Shown here piece by piece: positions 1 to 64,000 of a DNA stretch of 64,000 nt. Origin of the DNA: an uncultured Microbacterium sp. (GTDB lineage Bacteria > Actinomycetota > Actinomycetes > Actinomycetales > Microbacteriaceae). A program made the translations under genes and the position numbers. The first letter of the stretch is position 1. Every line of letters starts with the position of its first letter. Location of the stretch: positions 1 through 64,000 of the forward strand of contig CAJYHN010000002.1 of NCBI GenBank assembly GCA_913774665.1. Direction: 5' to 3'. The notes below the pieces were generated by a model that saw only the letters and a list, made by a program, of their open reading frames with translations, was not told the origin of the DNA and made no database searches.

Positions 1-27
1 GGAGAGTAGGACACCGCCGGACTTCTT
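1..27 (+). rRNA. rrf: 5S ribosomal RNA, 3' end only
   Basis: The first bases, GGAGAGTAGGACACCGCCGG, match the conserved 3' end of actinobacterial 5S rRNA. The rest of the gene lies outside the window. A strong hairpin follows, as expected at the end of an rRNA operon. The exact 3' end (25 to 28) is estimated. Confidence 0.85.
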
Positions 28-34
28 TTCACCG

Positions 35-64
35 AAATGGCCACCCAAAGTTGGGTGGCCATTT
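35..64 (+). terminator. rRNA operon terminator hairpin
   Basis: A perfect 12-bp inverted repeat (35-46 with 53-64) with a 6-base loop sits right after the 5S rRNA. There is no long T-run, as is common in actinobacteria. Confidence 0.85.
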
Positions 65-205
65 CGCATTCACGGGCACAATCCCCCCGTGGTGATCGAC
101 GTCGGTCGAACCAGGGGGAGACGTTTCAGCGCCGGTGCACACACCCCACCCCGGACAGGGAGGGTGTGAGCACCGGCGCTTCGCCGTCCCCGCGCCGCTG
201 ATCGG

Positions 206-211
206 TAGGCT
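206..211 (+). promoter_or_regulatory. -10 element TAGGCT of a probably leaderless MFS mRNA
   Basis: TAGGCT lies exactly 7 bases before the GTG at 219 and no Shine-Dalgarno is present, so transcription would start at or next to the start codon. The same layout recurs elsewhere in the window. Confidence 0.55.
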
Positions 212-218
212 CGAGGAC

Positions 219-1433
219 GTGAGCGAGTTCTCGGGCCATCTTCCCGGGAGTCGCGACTACCGTCGCCTGCTGGTCGGCCTCTTCTTCGGTGGCGTGGCGA
301 CCTTCGCCCAGCTCTACGCGACGCAGGCCGTCCTTCCGGCGATCGCCGACGATCTCTCGGCGGGCCCTGCAGGGGCAGCGCTGACGGTGTCGGCATCCAC
401 TCTCGGCTTGGCGATGGCGGTCATCCCGTGGTCGCTGGTGGCCGATCGCATCGGTCGTGTGCCCGCCATGGCCATCGGCTTGATCGTGGCGACTGTTCTC
501 GGCGCCGTCACGCCCTTCGCCGGCGACCTCGGCCTGCTGTTGACGCTGCGCCTTCTCGAGGGGGCGGCGCTCGGCGCCGTTCCGGCGGTTGCCCTCGCAT
601 ACCTGAGCGAGGAGGTGTCGCCCCGGTATGTGGCGGCCGCCGCCGGCTCCTACATCGCCGGGACGACCGTGGGCGGTCTCTCCGGACGCGTCGCTTCGGG
701 CTTCGTCGCCGAACTGGCCGGATGGCGGTTGGGGGTGGCATCCGTCGTCCTTCTCTGCGTGGTCGCGGCGGTGGTCTTCTTGGGGCTCGTGCCGGCGGCG
801 CGCGGATTCGTTCCCGGTCGGTCCCGGAGCGTGAGGGGACCGTCGGTGAGGCGACGTCTGGCGCTCAACCTCCGCTCTCCGGTGCAGCTCGCTCTCTATG
901 CCCAAGCCTTCCTGCTGATGGGCGCCTTCGTCGCTGTTTACAACTATCTCGGCTTCCACGTGGCGGCGCCGCCGTTCGCGCTGCCGCCGGCGGTGGTGAC
1001 GCTGCTGTTCCTCGCGTACCTCGCCGGGACGGTCTCGTCTCCGCGCGCGGGTGCGCTGGCCGTGAGGTACGGCAGGCTTCCCCTCCTGCTCGGCAGCACC
1101 GGACTCATGGCGGCGGGAGTGGTCGTGATGTTCCTCCCGTTCATCGCCGCGGTGATCGTGGGGCTTCTCGCCTTCACCGCGGGCTTCTTCGGGGCGCACG
1201 CGGTGGCCTCGGGCTGGACTCCGGTCGCCGCCGATCCCGAGGCCCGCGCGCAGGCGTCGTCGCTGTACTACCTCGGGTACTACGCGGGCTCGAGCCTGTT
1301 CGGATGGCTGCTGGGGCTGGTCTTCGCGTCCGCCGGGTGGGCGGTGTTCCTCACCGCGGTGCTCGGAATGTGCCTGGTCGCGCTGGTGATCGCCTGGTCG
1401 GCCCTGCGCGCAGCTCCCTCTCGTCCGCGGTGA
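219..1433 (+). CDS. MFS transporter, drug/metabolite efflux type
   Basis: A major facilitator superfamily protein of about 404 residues with around 12 hydrophobic segments. The loop between segments 2 and 3 carries an MFS motif-A-like stretch (VADRIGR). Overall similarity is to the YnfM/AraJ-like exporters, so it probably expels a small molecule by proton antiport; the substrate cannot be inferred. The reading frame is open back to a GTG at 135, but I prefer GTG 219: the extra 28 residues are polar and unlike the family, and a -10 sits 7 bases upstream of 219. It stands alone after the rRNA operon. Confidence 0.8.
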   Translation: MSEFSGHLPGSRDYRRLLVGLFFGGVATFAQLYATQAVLPAIADDLSAGPAGAALTVSASTLGLAMAVIPWSLVADRIGRVPAMAIGLIVATVLGAVTPFAGDLGLLLTLRLLEGAALGAVPAVALAYLSEEVSPRYVAAAAGSYIAGTTVGGLSGRVASGFVAELAGWRLGVASVVLLCVVAAVVFLGLVPAARGFVPGRSRSVRGPSVRRRLALNLRSPVQLALYAQAFLLMGAFVAVYNYLGFHVAAPPFALPPAVVTLLFLAYLAGTVSSPRAGALAVRYGRLPLLLGSTGLMAAGVVVMFLPFIAAVIVGLLAFTAGFFGAHAVASGWTPVAADPEARAQASSLYYLGYYAGSSLFGWLLGLVFASAGWAVFLTAVLGMCLVALVIAWSALRAAPSRPR

Positions 1434-1549
1434 GATCGGAGGGCAGCCCGGACGGCGGATCTGGCGACACTCGGCGGGTCGAGGTCAATGCCCGAGGTCG
1501 ATGTCGGTGGAAGCGACTAGCGTCGGTGGTGATGTGAGGGAGGTCGGCA

Positions 1550-3850: not shown

Positions 3851-3911
3851 CGCTCGCGGGCGGCGCCACCGGTGACGGATGGTGCCCGCCCGCGATGTCG
3901 GGGGCCGCGCG

Positions 3912-3917
3912 TACGCT
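3912..3917 (+). promoter_or_regulatory. -10 element TACGCT, leaderless type
   Basis: TACGCT ends 6 bases before GTG 3924. There is no ribosome-binding site, and this spacing decides the start over the in-frame ATG at 3879. Confidence 0.5.
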
Positions 3918-3923
3918 GACGCC

Positions 3924-4478
3924 GTGCCGCCCTCTCCTCCGTGTCTCGTCGTCAGCTGCGTCGGCGTCGCAGAGCCTGACGCGCCCATCGCCCTGTGCGC
4001 GTGGCACCTCGCGGTGAGCGCCGACTGGTCGGCTGCCCACGAGGGCGTCACGGACGTCCTGCCCGCGCCGTGCCTCGTGTGCGGATCACGTCTCGGCGTC
4101 CGTTGGCCGTCGGGATGGCTGTGCGCGGTGTGCGAGTGGCGGCACGGAGAACCGCTCGACGACGAACTCCCCTCACCGCGGGTCGACGTCGTCTACTACC
4201 TGCGCTTCGACGACCGCGTGAAGATCGGAACGACGGCGCATCCACGCCAGCGGCTCGCGGCGATCTGGCACGACGAGCTCCTCGCGTTCGAGCCGGGGGA
4301 CCGGCTCGTCGAACGTCGGCGCCACGCGCTCTTCGCCGACGAGCGCTTCGGCCGGACCGAGTGGTTCCGTCGCAGTCCCGCGCTCGACGCGCACATCGCG
4401 AACCTCGCCGCCGGCGTCGACGACCCGTGGGCGCGGTACGCGCGATGGGTGAGCGAGGCCATCGCTCGGCGCGGATGA
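3924..4478 (+). CDS. Cys-rich N-terminus plus GIY-YIG/T5orf172-like domain
   Basis: A 184-residue protein. The N-terminal half has eight possible zinc ligands (C7, C12, C25, H28, C50, C53, C67, C70), the last four as two CxxC pairs. From about residue 88 a VVYYLRF...VKIGTT...R...R pattern and a downstream EWF resemble the GIY-YIG nuclease superfamily, specifically the T5orf172/MUG113 group. Function is unknown; DNA binding or cleavage is an inference. It is monocistronic and probably leaderless. The frame is open back to ATG 3879, but the -10 spacing favours GTG 3924. Confidence 0.65.
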   Translation: MPPSPPCLVVSCVGVAEPDAPIALCAWHLAVSADWSAAHEGVTDVLPAPCLVCGSRLGVRWPSGWLCAVCEWRHGEPLDDELPSPRVDVVYYLRFDDRVKIGTTAHPRQRLAAIWHDELLAFEPGDRLVERRRHALFADERFGRTEWFRRSPALDAHIANLAAGVDDPWARYARWVSEAIARRG

Positions 4479-4554
4479 GGGTTCGGACGCAAGCCCTCTC
4501 TCGGCCGTGTCCCTGCCCGTAGCGTGGGTGTACCCCCGCAGAAAGGCGACCAGC

Positions 4555-5307
4555 ATGGGCTTCCTCGATCGACTCTTCGGTTCCGGTGACGAGTCCCGAC
4601 GCGCCGACATCCCTCCCGCGCCCCGCGGGACCGCGAGCGAACTGCGCGACACCGACGGTCGGTATGCGCCGCCACCCCCGCCGCAGGCTCGGACCGCGCA
4701 GGGCGCCGCGTCGGCGGCATCCGGATCGTCCGACGATCAGCGGGCGATCGAGCGATACCGTTATCTGCTGCGCACAGCTCCGCCCGAGACCGTCGAGCAG
4801 GTGCACGCCGAGGCGTTCGGGAAGCTCTCTCCGGAGCAGCGCCAGCAGGTGCTTCAGGAACTGTCGTCGGGGCTCGACCCCGCGGAGCGACCCCGCACCG
4901 ACGACCCCGACGCGCTGGCGCGAGCCGCGACCCGGGCCGAATACCGGCAGCCGGGTTTCATGGAGCGCACGTTCGGCGGCCGTTCGTTCTCGAACGGCCC
5001 CGGGTTCGGGTCGATGCTCGGGGCGTCGATGCTCGGCACCATCGGCGGGTACGTCGTGGGCTCCGCGCTGGTCGGAGCCCTCTTCGACCCTGGCTACGAC
5101 GCCGGCTATGCCGACGGTGCCGAAGCCGACGACGCCGCGGGCGACCCGGGAGCGGTCGATGCCGCGGCGACGGACGGCGGGGGAGCGGATGCCGGTGGCG
5201 ACATCGGCGCCGGGTTCGGCGGCGACGCCGGGGGCGGATTCGGCGGTGGCTTCGGCGGTGGTGATTTCGGCGGTGGTGATTTCGGCGGCGGCGACTTCGG
5301 GTTCTGA
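4555..5307 (+). CDS. conserved actinobacterial protein with Gly-rich tail
   Basis: A 250-residue protein of unknown function beginning MGFLDRLFGSG. The middle carries an IERYRYLLRTAPPE motif followed by LSPEQRQQVLQEL, a pattern I know from a widespread actinobacterial family sometimes labelled, without support, as a cation-transporting ATPase; no ATPase motif is present. Around residues 142-180 is a Gly/Ser-rich hydrophobic stretch that may be one membrane segment. The C-terminus is almost pure Gly/Asp/Phe with three GGGDF repeats. The start is set by AGAAAGG 8 bases upstream of ATG; a longer frame from 4507 lacks support. Confidence 0.7.
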   Translation: MGFLDRLFGSGDESRRADIPPAPRGTASELRDTDGRYAPPPPPQARTAQGAASAASGSSDDQRAIERYRYLLRTAPPETVEQVHAEAFGKLSPEQRQQVLQELSSGLDPAERPRTDDPDALARAATRAEYRQPGFMERTFGGRSFSNGPGFGSMLGASMLGTIGGYVVGSALVGALFDPGYDAGYADGAEADDAAGDPGAVDAAATDGGGADAGGDIGAGFGGDAGGGFGGGFGGGDFGGGDFGGGDFGF

Positions 5308-5390
5308 GCCGGCCGGCCCGAGCGCGCGCCTCGCCGGGCGGCCCGCGCGAGACACCCTCCCACCTCCCGCGGCAGCGCCTGGGGGAACGC

Positions 5391-5396
5391 TATGGT
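5391..5396 (+). promoter_or_regulatory. -10 element TATGGT, leaderless type
   Basis: TATGGT ends 7 bases before ATG 5404 and no ribosome-binding site is present. The in-frame ATG at 5392 lies inside the hexamer and is not preferred. Confidence 0.45.
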
Positions 5397-5403
5397 CGAG
5401 GCC

Positions 5404-7023
5404 ATGGCGCTCTCCAACCCGAGCGAAGGTCTCGGCCTGCGGCGCAGCATCGTCTCGAACCAATCGCTGCTCGCGGCCGCCGCCACGATCGGGGTGATCG
5501 TGTCGATCGTTCTCGGTCAGGTGCGCGACCCGTCGACGTTCTTCCTCGGTGCCGCCGCTGTCTACGTCGGGACGATCGCGGCTGTTCTCGTGCCGTGGGA
5601 TGCGGTGCCGCGCTGGACGCTCGCCCTCCTCCCCGCCATCGACGTCGTCGTCATCGCGGTGATGCGGGAGAGCGCCCCCACCGCCGGTCTCGGCCTGCTG
5701 TGGGCTTTCCCGGCGTTGTGGGTCGGGGGCACGTTCGGCCTCCGAGGCGTCGTGGCGGTCTCGTCGGTCATCAGCATCCTGCTTCTGCACCAGACCATCA
5801 CCGACACCGAGCAGCGCTTCGCGTCGTCGACGCTCGTGCTGCCGTTCATCATCGCTTCGCTGTCGTCGATGGCCCACCTGACCGCGCGCCGGGCGCGGGC
5901 GCAGCGGGCTCTGCTCGAGAAGCAGTCGGCCGAACTCCGTCGCGCGCTCGAGCGCGCGCAGCGCCAGGAAGATCTCGTGACCGAGGTGCTCGACGCCGTC
6001 GACTTCGGCGTGACGCGCATCACGGCGACGGGGGAGTTCGCGGTGACGAACACCGCCCACGGGCTGCTGCTCGACACCACCGATGCGTTCGGACACGAGA
6101 TCGCGGTGTTCGCGGCGGACGGCTCGACGCCCATCACGTCCTCGGCCAGTCCCCTCGCGCGTGCCCGCGCCGGCGAGGTGTTCGAGAGCGAGATGGTCTG
6201 GTACGGGCTTCCCGGCGAGGACCGCCGCGCGCTCAGCGTCACCGCCCGCCGCCTCCCGGCTCCCGACGGGGTGGACGCCGGCGGAGTGGTCGTCTCCCGC
6301 GACGTCACGGTCGAGGAGCAGGCCCGTCGCGCGCGCGAAGACCTCGTCGCGAGCGTCTCGCACGAACTGCGCACCCCGCTGACCTCGATCATCGGCTACC
6401 TCGATCTGGTGCTCGACGACGACGCGCTCGACGACGGCGCGCGCGATCGCCTCGAGATCGCGGAGCGCAACGCCTCCCGGCTGCTCGAGCTGGTCGCCGA
6501 CATCCTCTCGCAGTCCACCGCCTCGGGCGCAGGGAGCGCCGTCGAACTCGACCGTCGTCCCGCCGACATCGCAGCGCTCGTCCGCGCCGCGATCGAGTCG
6601 ATCGAACCGCGTGCTCGAGACCACGGCATCCGGATCATCACGGGCGAGATCGCCCCGGTGCGAGCCGTCGTCGACGCCCGGCGCGTGCGTCAGATCGTCG
6701 ACAACCTGCTGTCGAACGCCGTGAAGTACATCCCCCGCGGCGCCTCGATCACCGTGGGGGTGATCACCGATGTGCAGTCGCTGTCGATCGTGGTCTCCGA
6801 TGACGGTCCGGGCATCTCGCCGAGCGAGCAGGCGCGCTTGTTCGAGAGGTTCTTCCGCGGAGACGCTGTGCGCAAGACCTCGACCCACGGCAGCGGCCTC
6901 GGGCTGGCCATCAGCCGCGACCTCGCCCGCGCGCACGGCGGGGAGATCACCGTACGGACCGCGCCCGGCGAGGGTGCCACATTCACCGTGCGGTTGCCGC
7001 GCGACCCGAAGGGGGACGGATGA
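5404..7023 (+). CDS. membrane sensor histidine kinase
   Basis: A 539-residue kinase. The first ~165 residues contain about five membrane segments with little extracytoplasmic sequence. A coiled-coil linker and a PAS-like region follow. The HisKA box is VSHELRTPLTSI with the phospho-acceptor His320; the N box (DNLLSNAVKY), the DDGPGIS box and the GSGLGLAI box of the ATP-binding domain are intact, so it should be active. It overlaps the next gene by 4 bases (ATGA). The partner is probably the lone receiver on the opposite strand at 8182, although that lacks an output domain. Confidence 0.85.
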   Translation: MALSNPSEGLGLRRSIVSNQSLLAAAATIGVIVSIVLGQVRDPSTFFLGAAAVYVGTIAAVLVPWDAVPRWTLALLPAIDVVVIAVMRESAPTAGLGLLWAFPALWVGGTFGLRGVVAVSSVISILLLHQTITDTEQRFASSTLVLPFIIASLSSMAHLTARRARAQRALLEKQSAELRRALERAQRQEDLVTEVLDAVDFGVTRITATGEFAVTNTAHGLLLDTTDAFGHEIAVFAADGSTPITSSASPLARARAGEVFESEMVWYGLPGEDRRALSVTARRLPAPDGVDAGGVVVSRDVTVEEQARRAREDLVASVSHELRTPLTSIIGYLDLVLDDDALDDGARDRLEIAERNASRLLELVADILSQSTASGAGSAVELDRRPADIAALVRAAIESIEPRARDHGIRIITGEIAPVRAVVDARRVRQIVDNLLSNAVKYIPRGASITVGVITDVQSLSIVVSDDGPGISPSEQARLFERFFRGDAVRKTSTHGSGLGLAISRDLARAHGGEITVRTAPGEGATFTVRLPRDPKGDG

Positions 7024-8177
7024 GCCTCGACCTGCTCAGTCTGCAGACCGCCGCGTCGGTGGTCATCGTCATCTCGACCGTGATGTATCTGCTCGACACG
7101 CTCATGCTGAAGGACGGCCTGCCCGGCCGCATCTGGGCGAGCGCGTACCTGGCGGGCACGTTCTCGGCCCTGTGCTACCTGGGCTGGCTCCTGCTGCCGG
7201 ACGTCTATCTCGCGATCGCCCTCGGAAACGGCGCCTTCGTCGCGGCGACGGGGCTCATCTGGCTCGGGTGCGTCGCGTTCAACGGCCGGTCGGCGCGAGT
7301 GCCGTCGGTGGTCCTCGCGGCCGTGATCCTCGTCGTGATCATCTCGGCGCTGGCAGCCGGGCCCGAGGGCGGTGACTGGGCGGGAGCGGTGGCGCTGTTC
7401 CTCGGCAACGCGGCCCTCGCCGTGGCCGGAGCGATCGAGACGCGACGCGGGGCCATCCGCCGCCGATGGAGCGCGACCGGGCTGACGCTCGTGCTGGGGA
7501 TCGAGGCGGTGTGGTTCGTCGCCCGCACCGTCGTCTTCGTCGGCGTGGGTCCCGACAGCGAGCTGTTCCGGACCGCGTTCGACACGCGGGTGTCGTCCCT
7601 GCTCACGATCACGCTGGTGATCGCGGCCGTCGTGGTGACCTCTGCTCTGCGGGCCGACGAGTCGGCGCTGAGGGGAACGGGCGCGTCGAAGTCGTTGTCG
7701 GTGGATGCCGACGGCGTGCTGTTCCGCGAATCGTTCGAGGCGACGATGGCCATCGTGTGCGCGCGCGCCGAGGTGGCCGGAGAGGGGGTGGGGCTGATCT
7801 GCGTCCGCGTCGACGACCTGCGGAGGGTCGCCGTCGCGTTCGGACCCGACGAGGCGGAGTCCATCGCGCGCGAGTTCCGGGCGTCGGTGCGTCGTCACGC
7901 GCCGACGATGGCGCTGGTGGGTGCCCTGGATCCCGCCGGCGTCGCCGTGGCGTTCACCACCACCGCGACCACAGACGTGAAGAGGGTCACGCGCATCCTG
8001 CACGAGCGGGTCGTCTCCGACCTGGGGCGCCTCGGGCCGTCGGCCCTTCCGGTGGTGGGAATCGGAATGGCGCTCACCGCCGATCACGGGTTCGACGCCG
8101 CGGCCCTCGTCGCGCGGGCAGACGAAGCGGCCGCGCATGCTGCCGTGACCGGTACGCAGCCGTTCGGGCTGGTCTGA
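7020..8177 (+). CDS. membrane protein with degenerate GGDEF-like domain
   Basis: A 385-residue protein with about six to seven membrane segments in the first ~215 residues, then a soluble domain of ~160 residues. The soluble part has the outline of a diguanylate cyclase fold (a VRVDDLRRVAVAFG stretch, a later VGIGMALTADHGFD and a RADEAAAHAAV helix). Where GGDEF should stand there is VGALDPAGV, so metal and GTP ligands are missing. I read it as a catalytically dead GGDEF-like sensor or effector; this is inference from pattern. Translation is coupled to the histidine kinase by ATGA. It ends 4 bases from the convergent receiver gene. Confidence 0.6.
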   Translation: MSLDLLSLQTAASVVIVISTVMYLLDTLMLKDGLPGRIWASAYLAGTFSALCYLGWLLLPDVYLAIALGNGAFVAATGLIWLGCVAFNGRSARVPSVVLAAVILVVIISALAAGPEGGDWAGAVALFLGNAALAVAGAIETRRGAIRRRWSATGLTLVLGIEAVWFVARTVVFVGVGPDSELFRTAFDTRVSSLLTITLVIAAVVVTSALRADESALRGTGASKSLSVDADGVLFRESFEATMAIVCARAEVAGEGVGLICVRVDDLRRVAVAFGPDEAESIAREFRASVRRHAPTMALVGALDPAGVAVAFTTTATTDVKRVTRILHERVVSDLGRLGPSALPVVGIGMALTADHGFDAAALVARADEAAAHAAVTGTQPFGLV

Positions 8178-8181
8178 GCGA

Positions 8182-8652: not shown

Positions 8653-9252
8653 GTGCCTCTTCTCGCGCTGACCGGCGGCATCGCCTCGGGCAAGTCGACC
8701 ATCGCCGCCCTGCTCGCCGCACGCGGAGCCGTCGTCGTCGACGCCGACGCGATCGTGCGCGAGGTGCAGGCGCCGGGATCCCCGGTGCTCGCCGAGATCG
8801 AGCGCGAATTCGGGGCGGGGGTGATCCGCCCCGACGGCGCCTTGGATCGCCCCGCGCTCGGCGCGCTGGTGTTCGGTCACCCCGAGCGGCTCGCCGCGTT
8901 GAACGCCCTCGTGCATCCCGCGGTGCGCCGCGAGTCGGAGCGGCGGTTCGGTGAGGCGTTCGCGGCAGAGCCCACCGCGGTGGTCGTCTACGACGTCCCG
9001 CTGCTCGCGGAGGCTCGGGGCGGCGACGCGTGGGACCTCGTCGTCGTCGCACACGCCCCCGTCGAACAGCGGGTGCAGCGTCTCGTCCACGAGCGGGGGA
9101 TGACGGATGCCGAGGCTCGCGCCCGCATCGGATCGCAGGTCGGCGACGACGAGCGACTCGCGCTGGCCGACGTGGTGATCGACACGGCGACGACGATGGA
9201 CGAGACCCTCGCGCAGGTCGACCGGCTGTGGGAACGGGTCTCGGAGCGCTGA
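8653..9252 (+). CDS. coaE: dephospho-CoA kinase
   Basis: Catalyses the last step of coenzyme A synthesis, phosphorylating the 3'-OH of dephospho-CoA. The P-loop is LTGGIASGKST at residues 5-15, followed by a VVDADAIVREVQ stretch, VYDVPLLAE in the lid region and a conserved RIGSQ near the C-terminus. The GTG at 8653 gives the usual N-terminus (MPLLALTGG) and lies 6 bases after a CATCCT hexamer. An ATG at 8635 would add six residues and has a G-rich stretch upstream, so the start is uncertain. Length of about 199 residues is normal. It precedes uvrB, as in many actinobacteria. Confidence 0.9.
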   Translation: MPLLALTGGIASGKSTIAALLAARGAVVVDADAIVREVQAPGSPVLAEIEREFGAGVIRPDGALDRPALGALVFGHPERLAALNALVHPAVRRESERRFGEAFAAEPTAVVVYDVPLLAEARGGDAWDLVVVAHAPVEQRVQRLVHERGMTDAEARARIGSQVGDDERLALADVVIDTATTMDETLAQVDRLWERVSER

Positions 9253-12499: not shown

Positions 12500-15469
<2,970 letters not shown>

Positions 15470-15471
15470 GC

Positions 15472-17415
15472 ATGGCATCCCGCGAACGGGTGTCGCACCT
15501 CGCGTACCGCCCCAAGGCCGGTGAGATCCCCACCAATCCGGGGGTCTACCGGTTCCGGGACGCCGAGGGGCGCGTGCTGTACGTCGGCAAGGCGAAGAAC
15601 CTGCGCGCGCGCCTGTCGAACTACTTCGCTCCGCTGCACTCGCTGCACGAGCGCACGCGTCGCATGGTCACGACGGCGGCGAGCGTGGAGTGGACGGTCG
15701 TGCCCAGCGACATCGACTCACTGCAGCTCGAGTACATGTGGATCAAGGAGTTCGATCCGCCCTTCAACGTCCGCTACAAGGACGACAAGTCCTATCCCTT
15801 CATGGCGATCACCCTCGCCGACGAGGCGCCGCGGGTGATCGTCACGCGCAACCCGAAGATCCGCGGCGCGAAGTACTTCGGGCCGTATCCCAAGGTGTGG
15901 GCGGTGCACGACACGATCGACCTGATGATCAAGGTCTTCCCGATCCGCACGTGCAGCGACTCGTCGTACAAGAAGGCGATGGCATCCGGGCGTCCCTGCT
16001 TCCCCGGTCAGATCGGGCGCTGCGGCGGTCCCTGCTCGATGAAGGTGACGATCGAGGAGCACCGCGCGATCGTCAACGACTTCGTCGCCTTCATGTCGGG
16101 CGGCGACCAGCGCTTTGCGCGCGAACTGACGTCTCGCATGAAAGAGGCGTCGGCGGCGATGGACTACGAGTCGGCCGCGCACTACCGCGACCGCCTGCAG
16201 GCCATCGACGCCGTGCTCGGCAAGAGCGCCCTCGTGCTGGCCTCCGACACAGATGCCGATCTCTTCGGCATCGCCGAAGACGAGCTCGCCGCGACCGTCC
16301 AGCACTTCGTGGTGCGCGGCGGACGCGTGCGCGGAGTCCGCGCCACCACCATCGAGAAAGAGATCGACATCTCCGGAGCCGATCTCGTCGACCAGGTGCT
16401 GCAGCGCACCTACGGAGACGCGGATGCCACCGACATCCCGCGTCAGGTGCTCGTGCCCGAGCTGCCCGACGACGCCGAACAGCTCGAGGACTGGCTGCGC
16501 GAGCGCCGGGGCCGCCCGGTGACCCTGCAGGTGGCCCAGCGGGGCCGCAAGGCCGACCTGCTGAAGACCGCGACGCTCAACGCGCAACAGGCCCTCATGT
16601 TGCACAAGACGCGCCGCACGAGCGACTACGTCGCCCGGTCGCAGGCCCTCACCGACCTGCAAGAGGCGCTCGGCATGACCGAGGCGCCCTTGCGCATCGA
16701 GTGTTTCGACATCTCGCACCTGTCGGGCACCAACGTGGTGGCATCCATGGTCGTGTTCGAGGACGGTCTTCCGCGCAAAGACCAGTACCGCTCCTTCGGC
16801 GTCGCCGAGACGACCGACGACACCGATTCGATGTACCAGGTGCTCAGTCGTCGGCTGGCGTACCTCGATCGGCCCGACGAGATCGAGCCCGAGACCATCG
16901 ACGGGGCGATCGTGGCCGATCCCGATTCCGAGGAGGCGACGGCCGACGGCGAGGTCGTCACGGCTCGCAAGAGGCCGCGCTTCGCCTACCGCCCGCAGCT
17001 GCTCGTGGTCGACGGCGGTCAACCCCAGGTCGCCGCCGCGGCCCGTGCCCTCGCCGACGCGGGGCACGAGGAGATCGCGCTGTGCGGCATCGCCAAGCGT
17101 CTCGAGGAGGTGTGGCTGCCGGGGGAGGAGTACCCGGTGATCCTCCCGCGCACCTCGGAGGCGCTGTACCTGCTGCAACGTCTGCGCGACGAGGCCCACC
17201 GCTTCGCGATCGTCCACCAGCGCAAGCGCCGCAAGCGCGACATCACGAGCGTGCTCACCGAGGTCCCCGGCCTCGGCGACACGCGCATCAAGGCGCTGCT
17301 GCGGCATTTCGGGTCGGTCTCGGCGTTGAAGAACGCCACGCCCGAAGAGATCATGGAGCTCCCCGGCATCGGGCCGACCCTCGCCGAGAACATCCACAGC
17401 CATCTAGCTCGGTAG
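15472..17415 (+). CDS. uvrC: UvrABC excinuclease subunit C
   Basis: The dual-incision nuclease of nucleotide excision repair, 647 residues. The N-terminal GIY-YIG domain (NPGVYRFRD...[10 protein letters not shown]) makes the 3' cut. A UVR domain ([20 protein letters not shown]) binds UvrB. The C-terminal RNase H-like domain ([12 protein letters not shown]) makes the 5' cut, followed by helix-hairpin-helix motifs ([18 protein letters not shown]). It starts 2 bases after the uvrA stop. Its TAG stop is the first half of a TAGGCT hexamer that may drive rapZ. Confidence 0.97.
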
Positions 17416-17446: not shown

Positions 17447-18328
17447 ATGGAACCGGCACGCGACGACGAGCCAGGCGAGGTGCTGATCGTCACGGGCATG
17501 TCGGGCGCCGGGCGATCCACGGTCGCCAACGCCCTCGAGGACCTCGATTGGTACGTGGTCGACAACCTCCCCCCGCGCATGCTGCGACCGCTTCTCGAAC
17601 TCACGGAGCTCGCCGGTGGGGCGGTTCCGCGCGTCGCGGTCGTGGTCGACGTCCGCGGCCGATCGCTCTTCGGCGACCTCCCCGAGGCCATGCGCACCCT
17701 GCAGGCGAACCGGCAGGTGCGGGTGGTGTTCCTGGATGCCAGTGACGCGGTGCTCGTGCGCAGGTTCGAGGCGGTGCGCCGGCCGCACCCCCTGCAGCAC
17801 GACGGCACGATCCTGGACGGCATCCGTCGCGAGCGGGAGAGGCTGGCTCGCGTCCGCGAGGCCGCCGATGTCGTGATCGACACCTCCGCCCTGAACGTCC
17901 ACCAGTTGTCGTTGCGCGCGGTCGAATTGTTCGGCGAAGAGGGTGCCGCGCGCCACACCGTCACGCTGATGAGTTTCGGGTTCAAGTACGGCCTGCCGCC
18001 GGACGTCGATCTCGTCGCGGACATGCGCTTCCTGCCGAACCCGTTCTGGAACGACGATCTGCGCGCGCTCACCGGTGAAGATTCCCGCGTGCGGGAATAC
18101 GTGCTGGGTCAGCAGGGCGCGGCGGAGTTCCTCGACGCGTACGCGGCAGCGCTGGGCCCTGTGATGGAGGGGTATCAGCGCGAGAACAAGCGGCATTCCG
18201 TCGTGGCTGTGGGCTGCACGGGGGGCAAGCATCGATCGGTGGTGATGGCCCGGGAGTTGGCTGCACGTCTGTCCGATGTGCCCGGGGTGGCCGTCCGTGT
18301 GGCTCACCGCGACCTCGGTCGCGAGTAG
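17447..18328 (+). CDS. rapZ: RapZ family nucleotide-binding protein
   Basis: A 293-residue P-loop protein. The Walker A is GMSGAGRST, with Arg where many families have Lys; I recall the same variant in other actinobacterial members. The YVVDNLPP signature, the [24 protein letters not shown] core and the C-terminal [10 protein letters not shown] loop are all characteristic. In Escherichia coli RapZ is an RNase adaptor for a glmS-regulating small RNA; in actinobacteria the role is less clear, and links to cell-wall precursor control are inference. It sits between uvrC and whiA as usual, but the YvcK/CuvA gene normally found between rapZ and whiA is absent. Confidence 0.93.
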
Positions 18329-23382: not shown

Positions 23383-23419
23383 CACGGATGCCCGCGGCGC
23401 TCCGCCGCGGGCATCCGTG
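23383..23419 (+). terminator. terminator after tpiA
   Basis: A 16-bp perfect stem (23384-23399 with 23403-23418) with a 3-base loop. The stem contains GGATGCC on one arm and GGCATCC on the other. Confidence 0.85.
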
Positions 23420-24115: not shown

Positions 24116-24150
24116 AAGGGCCGGATGCCGTGGCATCCGGCCCTTCTTCC
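24116..24150 (+). terminator. rbpA terminator
   Basis: A 14-bp perfect stem (24116-24129 with 24132-24145) followed by a pyrimidine-rich tail (CTTCC). Both arms consist largely of the GGATGCC/GGCATCC word. Confidence 0.9.
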
Positions 24151-35040: not shown

Positions 35041-35084
35041 AACGCGGAGGACCGGATGCCGTGTGGCATCCGGTCCTCCGCGTT
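35041..35084 (-). terminator. terminator of the pentose-phosphate operon
   Basis: A 20-bp perfect stem (35041-35060 with 35065-35084) with a GTGT loop, about 58 bases after the pgl stop. The arms include GGATGCC and GGCATCC. Confidence 0.85.
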
Positions 35085-48545: not shown

Positions 48546-49736
48546 ATGACGACTGCGACCGAATCACCCGCAGCCGCCGAGGGTCACATCGACCCGGCAG
48601 CCCTCGTGGCATCCGTCGTTCCGGTGCAGACGCGCTCGGAGCGTCTGACCTCGTTCGACCCGGCCGACTTCGGCACCCCCACGGGGCGCGAGGTCAACTG
48701 GAAGCTCAGCCCGATCGCGCGCCTGGCGCCGCTGTTCGTCGACGAGGCCGGTCCCACCGGCGTCATCACCGTCGACGTGCAGGCGCCGGACGCCGTGGAG
48801 CAGCTGCGCCTCGCCGCCGGCCACGCGCCGCGCGGTGAGCACTTCCGGCCCGAAGACCTGCCCGCGGCCCTCGCGTGGACCCACGAGACCGAGGCTCCGC
48901 TGCTGCGGATCCCCGCGAACGTCGAGCTCGACGAGCCCGTCGTGGTGCGCCTGACCGGCACGGGCGGCCTCGCGCACGCCCACGTCGTGATCGAAGCGCA
49001 GCCCAATTCGCGCGGCACCGTGGTGCTGCGTCACGAGGGCACCGCCCACCACGCCCAGAACGTCGAGATCATCGTGCGCGACGGCGCCGATCTCACCGTC
49101 GTGTCGGTGCAGCGCTGGAACGACGACGCCGTGCACGCGGCATCCCACCAGGCCCGTGTCGACCGCGACGCCAAGCTCACTCACGTCGTGGTCAGCTTCG
49201 GCGGCGGCGTCGTGCGCGTGAACCCCTCGGTGGAGCTCTCGGGCCCCGGCGCCGAGGGGCGCCTGTACGGCCTGTCGTTCTCCGACGCCGGTCAGCACCT
49301 CGAGTCGCAGGTCTACCTGCACCACAAGGGTCCGCACACCGTCGGCGACGTGCTCTACAAGGGCGCCCTGCAGGGTGAGAGCGCGCGCAGCGTCTGGATC
49401 GGCGACGTCCTCATCGGACCGGATGCCACGGGCACCGACTCCTACGAGGCCAACCGCAACCTCGTGCTCACCGACGGCGCCCGCGCCGACTCGATCCCGA
49501 ACCTCGAGATCGAGACCGGTGACATCCAGGGTGCCGGCCACGCCAGCGCCACGGGTCGTTTCGACGACGAGCAGCTGTTCTACCTGCAGGCTCGCGGCAT
49601 CGCCGAAGACGAGGCGCGTCGCCTGGTCGTGCTCGGCTTCCTCAGCGAGATCGTGCAGCGTATCGGCATCCCCGAGCTCGAGACCGAGCTCATCGAGGCC
49701 ATCGAGCACGAGCTGGCCGAGGGGGCTGCCGCGTGA
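48546..49736 (+). CDS. sufD: Fe-S cluster assembly protein SufD
   Basis: Partner of SufB in the SufBCD scaffold. 396 residues. The N-terminal region is variable; the C-terminal DEQLFYLQARGIAEDEARRLVVLGF parallels the SufB end. The ATG follows the sufB TAA with no gap, and the end overlaps the next gene by GTGA. Confidence 0.94.
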   Translation: MTTATESPAAAEGHIDPAALVASVVPVQTRSERLTSFDPADFGTPTGREVNWKLSPIARLAPLFVDEAGPTGVITVDVQAPDAVEQLRLAAGHAPRGEHFRPEDLPAALAWTHETEAPLLRIPANVELDEPVVVRLTGTGGLAHAHVVIEAQPNSRGTVVLRHEGTAHHAQNVEIIVRDGADLTVVSVQRWNDDAVHAASHQARVDRDAKLTHVVVSFGGGVVRVNPSVELSGPGAEGRLYGLSFSDAGQHLESQVYLHHKGPHTVGDVLYKGALQGESARSVWIGDVLIGPDATGTDSYEANRNLVLTDGARADSIPNLEIETGDIQGAGHASATGRFDDEQLFYLQARGIAEDEARRLVVLGFLSEIVQRIGIPELETELIEAIEHELAEGAAA

Positions 49737-51374: not shown

Positions 51375-52538
51375 ATGAGCGTTCCTCCGTTGCAGGCCTT
51401 GCCGCTCGAGCTCCTGCGTCAGCGCAGCAGCACGAAGTGGCGCTCCTACGACGACGACGTCATTCCGATGTTCGTGGCCGAGACCGACTTCCCGCTGGCG
51501 CCGGCCATCACCTCGGCGCTGCATCGTGCCGTCGAGATCGGCGACACGGGGTACACGCCCCCGCGTCCCGGCATCGACCTCGATTTCGCCGACTTCGCCG
51601 AGCGGCAGTGGGGGTGGCGCCCGGATCCGGCGCGCATCCGCTGGACGGGCGACGTGATGATGGGCGTCGTCGAGGTGCTGCGGGGGGTGACCTCGCGCGG
51701 CGATCGGGTGATCGTGACGCCCCCGGTCTATCCGCCGTTCTACGACACGGTCGAGGAGGCGGGGGCCGTCGTGGAGCGCGTCCCGCTGATCGACGACGGG
51801 GAGCGCTGGCGCCTCGACCTCGACGGCATCGAGGCGGCTCTGGCGGGCGGAGCGCGCGCCGTGCTGCTGTGCAACCCGCACAACCCCACCGGGACTGTCC
51901 ACTCCCGGGACTCCCTCGCCGCTCTCGCGCGCCTCGCGAAGCGGTACGGCGCCAGTGTGATCAGCGACGAGATCCACGCGCCGCTCACCCACGCTCCCGC
52001 GGTCTTCACCCCCTTCCTGGATGCCGGTGACGAGGCGGCCGCGGTCGGGTACATCGTGACGAGCGCGAGCAAGACCTACAACCTCGCCGGGCTGAAGTGC
52101 GCTCTCATCGTGACCGGCTCGGAGGAGACCGCGGCGGTCGTGCGTGCCCTGCCCTGGGAGGTCGAGTGGCGTGCCGGGCTGTTCGGGGTCATCGCGAACC
52201 GTGCGGCGTTCTCGGCCGAGAGCGACGACTGGCTGGCCTCCCTGCTCGTGGCCCTCGACGACAACCGTCGTCTGCTCGCCGAGCTGCTGGCGGAACACCT
52301 GCCGCTCGCGCGGTATCGCATCCCGGAGGCGGGCTTCCTCGCGTGGGTCGATGTCTCGTCCTACGGCTGGGGCGACAACCCCGCCCCGTTCATCCGGCGC
52401 GAGGCGCAGGTCGCCCTGCACCACGGCCCGCTCTTCGGGGTCGAGGGGATCGGGCACGTGCGCGTCAACGTGGGCTGCGCTCCCGAGGTGCTGCGCGAGG
52501 CGATCGAGAGGATCGGGAAGCTGGTCGATCGCGCGTAA
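51375..52538 (+). CDS. PLP-dependent aminotransferase/C-S lyase, PatB/MalY type
   Basis: A 387-residue fold-type I pyridoxal-phosphate enzyme. The early signature RSSTKWRSYDDDVIPMFVAETDF marks the MalY/PatB branch. CNPHNPTG, SDEIHAPL and the Schiff-base Lys in TSASKTYNLAGLK are intact. Likely a cystathionine beta-lyase-like C-S lyase; an aminotransferase role is possible. It is monocistronic, 70 bases before the siderophore gene. Confidence 0.88.
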   Translation: MSVPPLQALPLELLRQRSSTKWRSYDDDVIPMFVAETDFPLAPAITSALHRAVEIGDTGYTPPRPGIDLDFADFAERQWGWRPDPARIRWTGDVMMGVVEVLRGVTSRGDRVIVTPPVYPPFYDTVEEAGAVVERVPLIDDGERWRLDLDGIEAALAGGARAVLLCNPHNPTGTVHSRDSLAALARLAKRYGASVISDEIHAPLTHAPAVFTPFLDAGDEAAAVGYIVTSASKTYNLAGLKCALIVTGSEETAAVVRALPWEVEWRAGLFGVIANRAAFSAESDDWLASLLVALDDNRRLLAELLAEHLPLARYRIPEAGFLAWVDVSSYGWGDNPAPFIRREAQVALHHGPLFGVEGIGHVRVNVGCAPEVLREAIERIGKLVDRA

Positions 52539-57747: not shown

Positions 57748-57764
57748 GAAGAGCCTCCTGCGTG

Positions 57765-58012: not shown

Positions 58013-59611
58013 GTGCTCGCCGTGCACGACCTCGAGATCCGCGTGGGTGCCCGCGTGCTCATGTCCGACGTGGACTTCCGCGTGTCCGACGGCGACAAGA
58101 TCGGCCTCGTCGGGCGCAACGGAGCCGGGAAGACCACCCTGACCAAGGTGCTCGCCGGCGATCTGCTGCCGTCCAACGGCGGCGTCGACCGTTCCGGAGA
58201 GCTCGGCTACCTGCCGCAGGACCCCCGCTCGGGCGACCCCGAGATGCTCGCGCGCACGCGCATCCTCGACGCGCGCGGTCTCGGCTCGCTCGCTCTCGGC
58301 ATGCACGAGGCGTCGATGGCGATGGGCGACGACGATCCCGCCGTCGCGGCGAAGGCGATGAAGAAGTACGGCCGCCTCACCGAGGAGTTCGAGTCGGCCG
58401 GCGGATACGCGGCCGAGGCCGAGGCGGCATCCATCGCCCACAACCTCTCTCTTCCCGACCGCATCCTCGATCAGCCGCTGAAGACCCTGTCGGGTGGTCA
58501 GCGTCGGCGCATCGAACTCGCGCGCATCCTGTTCTCGGACGCGCAGACGATGATCCTCGACGAGCCGACCAACCACCTCGACGCCGACAGCGTCGTGTGG
58601 CTGCGCGAGTTCCTCAAGGGGTACAAGGGCGGGCTCATCGTCATCTCGCACGACGTCGAGCTCGTGGGCGAGACGGTCAATCGCGTCTTCTACCTGGATG
58701 CCAATCGCCAGGTCATCGACGTCTACAACATGAACTGGAAGAACTACCTGCGCCAGCGGGTGGCCGACGAGGAGCGCCGCAAGAAGGAGCGCGCCAACGT
58801 CGAGAAGAAGGCCACCGCGCTGCAGCTGCAGGCCGCGCGCTTCGGCGCCAAGGCGTCCAAGGCTGCCGCCGCCCACCAGATGGTCGCGCGCGCCGAGAAG
58901 ATGCTCTCGGGCCTGGACGACGTGCGTCAGGACGAGCGCGTCGCCAAGCTCCGTTTTCCGAAGCCCGCGCCGTGCGGAAAGACGCCGCTCATGGCATCCG
59001 GTCTGTCGAAGTCGTACGGATCGCTCGAGATCTTCACCGACGTCGACCTCGCGATCGATCGCGGCTCGCGCGTGGTCATCCTGGGACTGAACGGTGCCGG
59101 AAAGACGACGCTGCTGCGCATCCTCGCCGGCGTCGATCAGCCCGACACCGGACAGCTCGAGCCCGGCCACGGTCTGAAGATCGGGTACTACGCCCAGGAG
59201 CACGAGAACCTCGACGTGAACCGCTCGGTGCTAGAGAACATGATGTCGTCGGCTCCGCACATCACCGCGACCGAGGCGCGAAAGGTGCTCGGTTCGTTCC
59301 TGTTCGTCGGCGACGATGTGCTCAAGCCCGCGGGGGTGCTCTCGGGTGGCGAGAAGACGCGCCTCTCGCTCGCGACGCTCGTGGTGTCGTCGGCGAACAT
59401 GCTGCTGCTCGACGAGCCCACGAACAACCTCGACCCCGCGTCGCGCGAGGAGATCCTCGGCGCCCTGTCGCACTACGAGGGTGCGGTCGTTCTCGTCTCG
59501 CACGACGAGGGGGCCGTCGAGGCGCTCAACCCCGAGCGCGTGCTGATCCTCCCCGACGGCGTCGAGGACATCTGGGGCCGCGATTACGCGGACCTGATCA
59601 CGCTGGCGTAG
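58013..59611 (+). CDS. ABC-F family ATPase
   Basis: A 532-residue soluble protein with two ABC cassettes and no membrane part. Walker A motifs are GRNGAGKTTL and GLNGAGKTTL; signatures LSGGQRRR and LSGGEKTR; Walker B LDEPTNHLD and LDEPTNNLD. Between them is the charged P-site-tRNA-interaction linker (EERRKKERANVEKK). ABC-F proteins act on the ribosome; the subgroup is uncertain and antibiotic protection is not implied. GTG 58013 gives the usual VLAVHDLEIRVG start; ATG 57971 would add 14 residues. The 3' end is partly duplicated downstream. Confidence 0.9.
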   Translation: MLAVHDLEIRVGARVLMSDVDFRVSDGDKIGLVGRNGAGKTTLTKVLAGDLLPSNGGVDRSGELGYLPQDPRSGDPEMLARTRILDARGLGSLALGMHEASMAMGDDDPAVAAKAMKKYGRLTEEFESAGGYAAEAEAASIAHNLSLPDRILDQPLKTLSGGQRRRIELARILFSDAQTMILDEPTNHLDADSVVWLREFLKGYKGGLIVISHDVELVGETVNRVFYLDANRQVIDVYNMNWKNYLRQRVADEERRKKERANVEKKATALQLQAARFGAKASKAAAAHQMVARAEKMLSGLDDVRQDERVAKLRFPKPAPCGKTPLMASGLSKSYGSLEIFTDVDLAIDRGSRVVILGLNGAGKTTLLRILAGVDQPDTGQLEPGHGLKIGYYAQEHENLDVNRSVLENMMSSAPHITATEARKVLGSFLFVGDDVLKPAGVLSGGEKTRLSLATLVVSSANMLLLDEPTNNLDPASREEILGALSHYEGAVVLVSHDEGAVEALNPERVLILPDGVEDIWGRDYADLITLA

Positions 59612-59692: not shown

Positions 59693-59805
59693 GTCTGGTG
59701 CCGATGGCGTAGCCGCTCCGGCGTCGCTGGCGTGGGGCCCTCAACGCTGCGATCGAGACCGATCGCTCTGCGGGTGCGCGAGCTCCTCGGCATCCACTCC
59801 CGCGC

Positions 59806-60788: not shown

Positions 60789-60795
60789 GTCTTCC

Positions 60796-60801
60796 AGGGT
60801 A
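60796..60801 (-). promoter_or_regulatory. -10-like TACCCT before the 26-codon ORF
   Basis: On the minus strand TACCCT is followed by 7 bases and GTG 60788, the leaderless arrangement seen elsewhere in the window. Confidence 0.35.
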
Positions 60802-60819
60802 CGTCGGTCGGCGTGAGCC

Positions 60820-61391: not shown

Positions 61392-61520
61392 AGTGGTATC
61401 AGGGTACGCCCGCGGCGGTGGGGCGGGGCGCGGCCGTGCGCGGACTGTTCGACGTCGTGACAAGCCGTCGAGCGCGGGTCGCCGGGCGCGCGGGGCGCCC
61501 GGCGGACCCGCCGCTGGGGA

Positions 61521-62186: not shown

Positions 62187-62278
62187 GGGAGCCCCTTTCG
62201 TCGCGCGTCCTCCCAGCGTTCCAGCGCCGCTGACCCCGTGTCAAACCTCGATGCGCGAGGCGATCGGGGCGGCCTCGG

Positions 62279-62284
62279 TAGGCT
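62279..62284 (+). promoter_or_regulatory. -10 element TAGGCT of fabG
   Basis: TAGGCT lies 37 bases before ATG 62322 in the divergent gap. GCAGGAG before the start shows this transcript is leadered. Confidence 0.5.
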
Positions 62285-62321
62285 GGGCCGGTTCCGTCAT
62301 CGCAAGCGCAGGAGTCTCACC

Positions 62322-63032
62322 ATGTCCCAGGACCGCGTCGTCGTCGTCACCGGAGGAAACCGGGGCATCGGTCGAGCCATCGCCGAGCGTTTCGTCGCCG
62401 AGGGGTGGAAGGTCGCCGTGACGGCCCGCTCGGGTGAGGGTCCCGAGGGGACGCTGACCGTCCGTGCCGACGTGACCGACGCCGCCACCGTCGACGCCGC
62501 TTTCACTCAGGTCGAGGCCGAGCTCGGTCCGATCGCCGTGGTCGTGGCCAACGCCGGGGTGACGAAGGACACCCTGCTGCTGCGCATGACCGAAGACGAC
62601 TTCGACAGCGTGGTGAACACGAATCTCGGGGGCGCGTTCCGCGTGGTCAAGCGCGCCTCGAAGGGCATGCTCAAGGCCCGGTGGGGTCGCGTCATCCTCA
62701 TCTCCAGCGTCGTGGGCCTGTACGGCTCGGCCGGCCAGATCAACTACGCCGCCTCGAAGAGTGCTCTCGTCGGCTTCGCGCGCTCTCTGACCCGCGAGCT
62801 CGGAGGGCGCGGAATCACCGCGAACGTGGTGGCTCCGGGCTTCATCGAGACCGACATGACGGCCGAGCTCCCCGCTGACACTCAGGCGGAGTACAAGAAG
62901 AACATCCCCGCCGGGCGCTTCGCGTCGGCTGATGAGGTGGCGGGCGTCGTGACGTGGCTCGCCGGCGATGACGCGGCCTACATCTCGGGCGCCGTGATCC
63001 CCGTCGACGGCGGCCTGGGCATGGGCCACTGA
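62322..63032 (+). CDS. fabG: 3-oxoacyl-ACP reductase FabG-type short-chain dehydrogenase
   Basis: A 236-residue NADPH-dependent reductase of fatty-acid elongation. The cofactor loop is TGGNRGIGRAIAE at residues 10-22, NAG is present, and the active site is ISSVVGLYGSAGQINYAASK with Ser, Tyr and Lys. The short length and sequence match the actinobacterial FabG1 group. ATG 62322 follows GCAGGAG. A 30-bp repeat array follows the stop. Confidence 0.9.
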   Translation: MSQDRVVVVTGGNRGIGRAIAERFVAEGWKVAVTARSGEGPEGTLTVRADVTDAATVDAAFTQVEAELGPIAVVVANAGVTKDTLLLRMTEDDFDSVVNTNLGGAFRVVKRASKGMLKARWGRVILISSVVGLYGSAGQINYAASKSALVGFARSLTRELGGRGITANVVAPGFIETDMTAELPADTQAEYKKNIPAGRFASADEVAGVVTWLAGDDAAYISGAVIPVDGGLGMGH

Positions 63033-63060
63033 CCGCGAGACGCGTCGGCGCGCTCTCCGG

Positions 63061-63298
63061 CGTCTCGGGGTGCGCGCCTAGCCCGGCTGCCGTCTGAGGG
63101 CGCGCGCCTGGCCCGGCCGCCGTCTGGGGGCGCGCCTGGCCCGGCCGCCGTTTAAGGGTGTGCGTCTGGCTTGGCCGCCGTCTGGGGGTGCGCGTCCAGC
63201 CTGCCCGCCGTCTGAGGGTGCGTGCCTGCCCCCGCCGCCGTCTCCGAGTGCGCGCCTGGCCCCGCCGCCGTCTGGGGGTGCGCGTCCGGCCCCGCCAC
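63061..63298. repeat. 30-bp tandem array, eight units
   Basis: Units start at 63061, 63091, 63121, 63149, 63179, 63209, 63239 and 63269; seven are 30 bp and the third is 28 bp. Each begins CGTCT or a near variant and ends GCCGC or similar. It fills the gap between the convergent fabG and hydrolase genes. All reading frames through it give decapeptide repeats, but none joins a gene, so I treat it as non-coding. Confidence 0.92.
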
Positions 63299-63330
63299 CG
63301 CGAGACCGCTCCTGCGGGGTCGAGCCGGTC

Positions 63331-64000
63331 TCATCGCACGGCGGCGACGAGCGTCTCGGCGAACTTCTGGGGCTGAGAGAACTGCGGCCAGTGGCCGGAG
63401 TCGAGCGTGACGACCTCGACGCTCTCGATACGGTCGACCTCGTCGGCGTAGGCCCCCCAGTCCGCGAGGACGCGGCGGAGCGACTCGGCATCGAGCTGCC
63501 CCGACAGGATCGTGACGGGGATCGCGAACCGCCGCTCGTCGGTCAAGGTGATCGGCGATGTCGGAACGCGGCCGGGAACGTCGACGACCTGCTTTGCGGT
63601 CCGCCGGCGCGTCTCGTCGTCGAGGTCGGCGACGTCGTCTTCGTCGAAGAAGTCCCACCCGGGGAAGCACACGACACCGTCCTCGACGGGGAACTCCGAG
63701 ATCATCGCGCCCGGGGGCGGGGTGATCGTGTCGACGAGGATGACGCGCGCGATCTGCGCGGGTCGTCGATCCGCCGCGCCCCATACGACGTTGCCGCCAC
63801 CCGAGTGCCCGACGAGCACGACGTTCTCGACGAGACGGTCGATTTCGCCGACGACGGCGTCGACCCAGTCGTCGATGACGAGGTCGCCCAGCGCGGGCCC
63901 GGGCAGGGTCACGGGGTGCGGTCGATGACCAGCCGCCTCGAGGGCGGGGGTGACGTCGTCCCACGACGACGCGTCGAGCCAGAGACCGGGAACCAGGATG
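63331..64000 (-). CDS. alpha/beta hydrolase, N-terminus outside window
   Basis: At least 223 residues of an alpha/beta hydrolase; the frame is open to the window edge and the visible start LVPGLWLDASSWDDV is the usual first strand and oxyanion loop, so only a few residues are missing. The nucleophile is in VLVGHSGGGNV (GHSGG), and a catalytic His is near the C-terminus in LDSGHWPQFSQP. The inner GTG at 63912 is not the start. Substrate unknown. Confidence 0.85.
   Translation of the reverse strand, partial: ILVPGLWLDASSWDDVTPALEAAGHRPHPVTLPGPALGDLVIDDWVDAVVGEIDRLVENVVLVGHSGGGNVVWGAADRRPAQIARVILVDTITPPPGAMISEFPVEDGVVCFPGWDFFDEDDVADLDDETRRRTAKQVVDVPGRVPTSPITLTDERRFAIPVTILSGQLDAESLRRVLADWGAYADEVDRIESVEVVTLDSGHWPQFSQPQKFAETLVAAVR

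Follow-up and report, generated by a model that had tools for sequence, protein, structure and literature searches.

To our knowledge, short DNA words that recur throughout a genome and differ in spelling between lineages are known in two Gram-negative families, where they serve DNA uptake, and in cyanobacteria, where they are linked to methylation. The dialects of the DNA uptake sequence (DUS) are the nearest published parallel to the word reported here (PMC3630211). In some cyanobacterial genomes other words, GGGATCCC among them, take the place of highly iterated palindromes (HIPs), and a matching methyltransferase is reported for each (PMC4390886). A third kind of word, Chi, is read by RecBCD in Proteobacteria and in E. 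coli is polarised on the leading strand (PMC8022716). Here we describe the heptamer GGATGCC (complement GGCATCC) in a stretch of 64,000 nucleotides, positions 1 to 64,000 of contig CAJYHN010000002.1 from an uncultured Microbacterium sp. of the Microbacteriaceae (assembly GCA_913774665.1; hereafter the window), and in the genomes related to it. GGATGCC is a real and strong genome word, apparently undescribed, whose spelling evolves within a Gram-positive family. Our leading reading, to which we give a probability of about 0.4, is that GGATGCC (for most of the Microbacterium sampled, the source of the window included, more precisely GGATGCCR; R, A or G) may be read by a protein and accumulate in the genome through DNA uptake.

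Abundance of the word relative to base composition and codon usage

The window contains 79 exact copies of GGATGCC/GGCATCC over both strands, about one per 810 bp and in both orientations, close to the approximately 75 reported in an initial annotation made from the letters alone. None of 100 dinucleotide-preserving shuffles of the window reached this number (mean 13.2, standard deviation 3.5, maximum 23), and under a second-order Markov model GGATGCC was the window's top 7-mer by z-score (79 vs. 14.1 expected, z 17). Enrichment was likewise found genome-wide. In the window's own genome (G000; 3,575,913 bp in 14 contigs) there are 5,487 copies, 2,725 forward and 2,762 reverse, compared with 375 (212 + 163) of the reversed word, which was counted alongside as a control.

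A count of this kind could arise with no reader of the word at all, from codon-pair, codon-usage or mutational bias. We examined a 378-kb sample of G000 (the window and 16 further stretches), over 77% of which a simple GC-frame script called genes, and shuffled synonymous codons within each gene for 60 rounds. Enrichment survived the shuffle, with sense GGATGCC observed 172 times in genes vs. 37.3 (standard deviation 5.3) after shuffling and sense GGCATCC 225 times vs. 77.0 (6.1). The excess was present in five of the six frame-and-strand classes and was largest, up to 30-fold, where rare codons were forced. The earlier observation that the word is spelled within genes as GAT GCC or GCA TCC, in codons that are rare elsewhere, therefore holds (G-GAT-GCC, 159 vs. 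28.8; G-GCA-TCC, 112 vs. 3.7). The same outcome was obtained in a second Microbacterium (G070) and in a genome of another genus (G204, genus g94). What agrees with a codon effect is that frame-0 GGC-ATC-C is common anyway in G000 (104 vs. 70.8 expected) and that frame-0 GGA-TGC-C, the remaining class in the sample, shows no excess (2 vs. 1.5 after shuffling). Against it stand not only the shuffle, and the discrete replacement of the word by GGATCC in one clade and the eighth-base rule that holds in the three main frame-and-strand classes of G000 and G070 (both described below), but also a high density outside predicted genes, 1.97/kb vs. 1.35/kb inside in G000, where the uncalled 23% must nevertheless include some genes; in G070 and G204 the density was lower outside predicted genes than inside. 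The codon effect that had been offered as an alternative is thus ruled out as a full explanation, and bias without a reader, largely refuted by the codon null together with the dialect switch, seems extremely improbable to us.

Distribution across the Microbacteriaceae

Named loci allowed one genus of the set (g1) to be taken as Microbacterium and its family (f1) as Microbacteriaceae; named relatives of the RapZ locus, among the best 80 of 584, were Microbacterium sp. SORGH_AS_1204, M. proteolyticum, M. testaceum and M. enclense. Across 89 Microbacterium genomes, G000 included, the word occurs at 246 to 1,942 copies per Mb (median 1,302), and across 84 other genera, each represented by one genome out of 293 other-genus genomes, at 79 to 1,888 per Mb (median 564). 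Enrichment is present in many genera of Microbacteriaceae and absent in others, and in 59 genomes from other families of the order the word was approximately 1.1 to 3.9 times as frequent as the control word. One genome without the word is G198 (genus g88), with 229 copies vs. 245 of the control genome-wide; in 190 kb of this genome the word reached 0.85 of its expected count, and none of the others was as prominent (best z 13). In the genes of the G198 sample GGCATCC occurred twice vs. 13.3 by synonymous shuffle, as if avoided there. Two records found among Microbacteriaceae/Arthrobacter loci, titled Planococcus sp. APC 4015 (L012) and Vibrio cholerae 35D (L075), are probably mislabelled assemblies.

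Site density in the more enriched Microbacterium genomes, about 1,500-2,200 per Mb, is close to the 1,000-2,000 per Mb of HIPs. This is in keeping with a HIP-like word, in which a conserved solitary DNA methyltransferase would modify each site and methylation-directed repair or some other methyl reader would add copies until one lay within about 1 kb everywhere. We consider such a methylation word a serious rival of the uptake reading, though less likely than not. Restriction methyltransferases tend to occur sporadically, whereas this word spans many genera, and the further evidence on both sides comes from its spelling, its near-misses and its spacing.

Lineage-specific spellings

When the bases beside the word were compared with those beside its one-mismatch neighbours, the eighth base was A or G in 93% of copies in both G000 and G070, vs. 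62% and 61% beside the neighbours. GGATGCCR is the spelling in these two sampled genomes and in most other Microbacterium loci, where purines make up 0.78-0.90 (0.85 for the six closest species); L009-L012 depart from this at 0.59. In the three main frame-and-strand classes the purine rule held at 87-99% in G000 and 94-96% in G070, and at only 37-66% in G204. Genome-wide, an eighth-base pyrimidine is infrequent in G000 (326 of 5,487 copies, about 6%, where about 38% of one-mismatch neighbours are followed by one), in G148 (g38; 212 of 3,283) and in G210 (g100; 423 of 4,628), and frequent in G204 (3,192 of 7,364, 43%), G226 (g116; 2,372 of 4,405), G154 (g44; 2,303 of 3,937, 58%) and G221 (g111; 1,356 of 2,075).

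A more radical change was found within Microbacterium itself. In G043, a genome low in GGATGCC, the leading word is GGATCC, with 640 strand-counts against 168. Six of 119 Microbacterium genomes have 3,875 to 8,244 GGATCC sites (approximately 1,600-2,200 per Mb), while the remaining 113 have 341 to 1,908, at most about 500 per Mb. For three of the six, counts of GGATGCC are also at hand, and at 246, 259 and 355 per Mb they rank first, second and fourth from the bottom of the 89. Most other low-GGATGCC Microbacterium sampled showed no replacement word in 20 kb. GGATCC is also high in G181 (g71; 5,698 sites) and G151 (g41; 3,253). A midpoint-rooted tree was built from the window and 33 relatives (34 loci, 15,678 columns). 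It places L033-L036, the four species enriched in GGATCC, in a single clade (support 1.0) that is nested among GGATGCC species and sister to L031; in these four, GGATCC stands at 1.8-2.8 times expectation and GGATGCC is down to 0.9-1.0 times. Given this nesting, the switch would be a derived one if the rooting is right. GGATGCC and GGATCC have GGAT..CC in common, as expected for dialects of one reader. A methylation word would be at home with GGATCC, which is palindromic and contains GATC, but less so with the commonest word, GGATGCC, which is not palindromic.

CGCATCC/GCATCC is among the leading words of G054 (L161; 34 vs. 8 in 20 kb) and of Gulosibacter macacae (L073; 26 vs. 5), and CGCATCC is perhaps a third spelling, GGATGCG.

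Conservation and turnover of copies

Positions 7447-28328 of the window were aligned with the 33 relatives, using as a control other 7-mers with two A/T bases, matched on base content and not on codon phase. Six close species keep copies of the word at 0.53-0.77, vs. 0.32-0.38 for the control 7-mers (19-23 aligned copies each). In the other 27 species retention of the word was 0-0.37 vs. 0.16-0.28 for the control, that is, near or below control in most. The 34 sequences together contain 284 distinct word columns, 190 of which are confined to one species. Between clades individual copies come and go at a persistently high density; the word is hence kept as a density and not as a set of fixed sites. 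That it is a selected DNA word, as the initial annotation had proposed, is supported by its genome-wide occurrence on both strands contrary to codon usage, by its conservation over control 7-mers in close species, and by its lineage spellings.

Among one-mismatch neighbours, changes at position 6 (C to T or A) were among the most raised in G000 and G070, the ends being unremarkable; G204 additionally had C to T raised at the last base. In HIP1 it is the first and last bases that vary among near-misses, a different pattern and so a further point against a methylation word. Simple conversion by repair, of the Vsr type, was rejected as a source of copies. The lowest neighbours, GGATGCA and GCATGCC, are also low in non-carriers, and as no neighbour is depleted in carriers alone, a conversion feeding on one neighbour is unlikely.

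Orientation and spacing

Neighbouring copies tend to lie on opposite strands. For pairs 25-200 bp apart in G000 and G070, 108 had the same and 238 the opposite orientation (31% same), while 126 similarly common 7-mers, the word excluded, averaged 57% same (standard deviation 5.3%); the minimum among them, 37%, belongs to a 7-mer that overlaps the word, and once overlapping 7-mers are set aside the minimum over the remaining 124 is 47%. Relative to Poisson expectation over the same distances, the word stood at 0.55 for same and 1.20 for opposite orientation, and the controls at 1.27 and 0.97. Same-to-opposite ratios were 13:28 in close relatives and 20:47 in other Microbacterium loci, which are orthologous to part of the window and so not independent, and 36:58 in G210 (38% same vs. 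a control of 56%, standard deviation 6.9%). In G204 alternation was weak (59:72, 45% same vs. 53%, standard deviation 7.9%). The difference between forward and reverse counts (F minus R) was under-dispersed, with a variance/mean of 0.59 in G000, 0.45 in G070 and 0.31 in G204 (18, 23 and 9 stretches of 20 kb, respectively). Over the 57 genomes with more than 1,200 copies per Mb, (F-R)^2/(F+R) had a mean of 0.73 and a median of 0.26, vs. 1.76 and 1.02 for the control word. No chromosomal polarity was seen in G070, where 401 forward and 411 reverse copies were near balance in each of 23 stretches distributed along the chromosome, nor when copies were split by local GC skew (249:236 and 152:175), the origin of replication not having been located. 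The palindrome GGATCC in G043 showed neither repulsion nor even spacing.

Several readings could account for a strand-specific arrangement. A methylation word would do so if an asymmetric site were modified on one strand, which would yield the observed avoidance on the same strand. A translocating end-processing enzyme that reads one strand, as with Chi, would need regularly spaced copies on each strand; the non-palindromic form and the 7-8 bp length of the word, the repulsion between same-orientation neighbours, the under-dispersion of F minus R, and the alternation in other Microbacterium loci and in genus g100 all fit such a recombination or repair word. Yet alternation is weak in g94, GGATCC is a palindrome that shows no repulsion, G070 lacks the leading-strand polarity of E. 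coli Chi, and a search for RecC found no match in any of 100 Microbacteriaceae genomes. RecBCD acting on a Chi site was rejected for want of RecC; a Chi-like word in general is in our opinion unlikely, yet a serious rival of uptake.

Alternatively, the word may be an identity mark for the strand, read or modified on one strand only and letting repair or recombination enzymes tell the old strand from the new. Each strand would then have its own spaced copies, same-orientation neighbours repelling and opposite ones attracting; evolution of the reader would bring a swap of spelling, and a single GGATCC site, being a palindrome, would mark both strands. We know of no strand signal for the mismatch repair of this phylum, which is based on NucS and is not known to use MutS/MutL. 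Such a mark, in all its parts, we judge decidedly unlikely. More improbable still is a site for a nucleoid protein or for chromosome folding, for which broad genome coverage and paired inverted copies could be cited. Helical phasing of opposite pairs was not clear (the strongest peak, at 11.05 bp, came from one pair type, stood beside period-3 signals of like size and was judged non-significant, no formal test being applied), a change of spelling would not be expected of an essential architectural protein, and no candidate protein is known to us.

Individual copies and inverted pairs in the window

All ten example sites in the initial annotation are occupied by exact copies, four of them displaced by 1-3 bases. 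On the plus strand these are 7703..7709 (previously given as 7702), 9105..9111, 17734..17740 (17736) and 52019..52025, and on the minus strand 737..743, 13174..13180 (13172), 15474..15480, 16740..16746, 48608..48614 and 58993..58999 (58990).

The three inverted word pairs that had been described were also all recovered, and their arms located. The first (23386..23416, plus strand; arms 23386-23392 and 23410-23416) forms a hairpin directly 3' of the triosephosphate isomerase gene (22588-23376; Pfam TIM), its center 24 bp beyond the predicted stop. The second (24123..24138; arms 24123-24129 and 24132-24138) is a hairpin with a T-rich tail on the plus strand, between rbpA (23740-24093, plus strand; Pfam RbpA) and a predicted convergent gene (24234-24983, minus strand), and not assigned to either strand; its center is 37 bp beyond the predicted stop. 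The third (35054..35071, minus strand; arms 35054-35060 and 35065-35071) is a hairpin 3' of a 6-phosphogluconolactonase-family gene (35142-36182, minus strand; Pfam Glucosamine_iso), centered 79 bp beyond the predicted stop. With a close pair defined as GGATGCC...GGCATCC over 7-27 bp, the G000 sample contains 14, of which 12 are outside predicted genes and 10 lie no more than 150 bp after a predicted stop.

Other words also stand out in the samples. In that of G000, ATAAACG and CGATAAACGC have 20 and 14 strand-counts vs. 0.5 and 0.1 expected and are perhaps a dispersed regulatory or repeat element. In that of G070, TTTCACGTGAA, within a palindrome-like element, has 12 strand-counts vs. an expectation displayed as 0.0, perhaps a regulator site or a repeat.

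Competence genes, foreign DNA and the uptake reading

If GGATGCC is an uptake word, a protein would recognise it and the specificity of that protein would drift between lineages, each lineage then filling its genome with its own spelling. DNA bearing the word would be preferentially taken up and recombined in natural transformation, a molecular drive of the kind proposed for the DUS of Neisseria and the uptake signal sequence (USS) of Haemophilus. A word selected as a density, with a spelling that drifts by clade, is the trace expected of an uptake receptor whose specificity changes. The machinery would be ComEA and ComEC with a basal Tad (Flp) pilus, by parallel with Micrococcus luteus, in which tad genes are reported to be needed for natural transformation (PMC4322843). 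In G000, ComEA-ComEC lies on contig C2 at about 373-376 kb, and contig C4 carries, at about 22-24 kb, a Tad ATPase accompanied by a short pilin-like gene.

DNA of probable foreign origin offers a further comparison. When G000, G070 and G210 are cut into 5-kb windows, word density in the tenth with the lowest GC is about half that of the remainder, which is partly an effect of base composition. Six Microbacterium phage sequences contain 62 copies vs. 36.1 expected, and five of the six, pooled, 43 vs. 32.4, each at 0.4-1.9 times expectation. Such densities are as expected of DNA that has not accumulated the word. A different word is raised in some of these phages: in Efeko (L196, 1-17491), GCCGGC has 264 strand-counts vs. 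90 expected, a HIP-like palindrome in 17.5 kb, and it is also raised in Lynlen (144/67) and Albright (152/56).

The statement in the initial annotation that the word behaves like a DNA uptake sequence stands in part. It fits a word that is abundant, lies in both orientations, has dialects, occurs beside competence genes and, in the window's genome, forms inverted pairs behind genes; gene content does not single out uptake. ComEC is present in 98 of 100 Microbacteriaceae genomes, and the HHH_3 domain, which is found in ComEA and is not specific to it, likewise in 98 of 100. As these genes are near-universal, neither discriminates carriers from non-carriers, and both were dropped as uninformative. 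Within the pilus genes, one strong Tad-type ATPase was found in the high-density genomes G000, G009 and G070 and two in G043 and G045. Of 118 Microbacterium genomes, 19, including incomplete ones, had no more than one T2SSF match, and 16 of the 17 low-T2SSF genomes with word counts exceed 1,200 copies per Mb, vs. 57 of 89 overall. A match to TadE correlated with density at rho 0.40 (n=68 genomes above 2.3 Mb, uncorrected for kinship).

Several points weigh against uptake. Genera that lack the word, such as that of G198, have ComEC and HHH_3 just as well. At 1,534-1,935 copies per Mb, G000, G009 and G070 do without the second, stronger Tad locus; this locus is not needed for the word and was rejected as its reader. 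TadE is a weak discriminator with clear exceptions, G000 among them. The eighth-base rule was not seen in the Microbacterium-type loci L009-L012 (purine 0.59), and phage Efeko is itself enriched in the word (19 vs. 3.7 expected). Terminator-like hairpins built from the word are a feature of the window's genome and scarcely of G070, where 8 of 15 close pairs are outside predicted genes and only 2 of 15 follow stops. No sequence-specific uptake is known to us in Gram-positive bacteria, nor are we aware of any report of local strand alternation for USS or DUS. A narrow literature search, on the genus with transformation or competence, found no report of a naturally transformable Microbacterium. 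Uptake is reported to be independent of the orientation of the USS (PMC1939737), and a general orientation bias is reported not to occur in uptake sequences (PMC2346458).

Significance and comparison with known systems

The initial annotation knew of no such word in this family, and the literature on the word and on uptake or over-represented words in Microbacterium, Microbacteriaceae or Actinobacteria agrees: among the matches listed from the open-licence literature, a description was found for neither spelling. A word this strong that spans a large Gram-positive family and changes its spelling within a single genus provides a natural experiment for finding the protein that changed along with that spelling. 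Should the word serve uptake, it would be the first of its kind known to us in Gram-positive bacteria and would predict gene-exchange partners among them; should it serve repair or methylation, it would bear on the means by which Actinobacteria distinguish their strands.

Like Chi, read by RecBCD or AddAB, GGATGCC is an over-represented, non-palindromic 7-8-mer with lineage variants, and its strand-specific spacing would suit a one-strand reader; unlike Chi, it has no chromosomal polarity, RecC was not found among 100 genomes of the family, and in one lineage the word is a palindrome. With HIP1 and the alternate HIPs it shares a density of 1,000-2,000 per Mb and the replacement of one word by another in some genomes, and the cyanobacterial alternate GGGATCCC even contains the palindrome GGATCC. 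It differs from them in that the main word is non-palindromic, the minority spelling GGATCC alone being palindromic, and in its near-miss pattern. DUS in Neisseriaceae and USS in Pasteurellaceae are longer (9-12 bp, compared with 7-8 bp here) and belong to hosts other than a high-GC Gram-positive family; the word described here also alternates locally between strands, and we know of no candidate for a ComP-like DNA receptor in Actinobacteria. It resembles them in occurring as hundreds to thousands of exact copies in both orientations, many within genes, in forming some inverted pairs, and in having related spellings by lineage.

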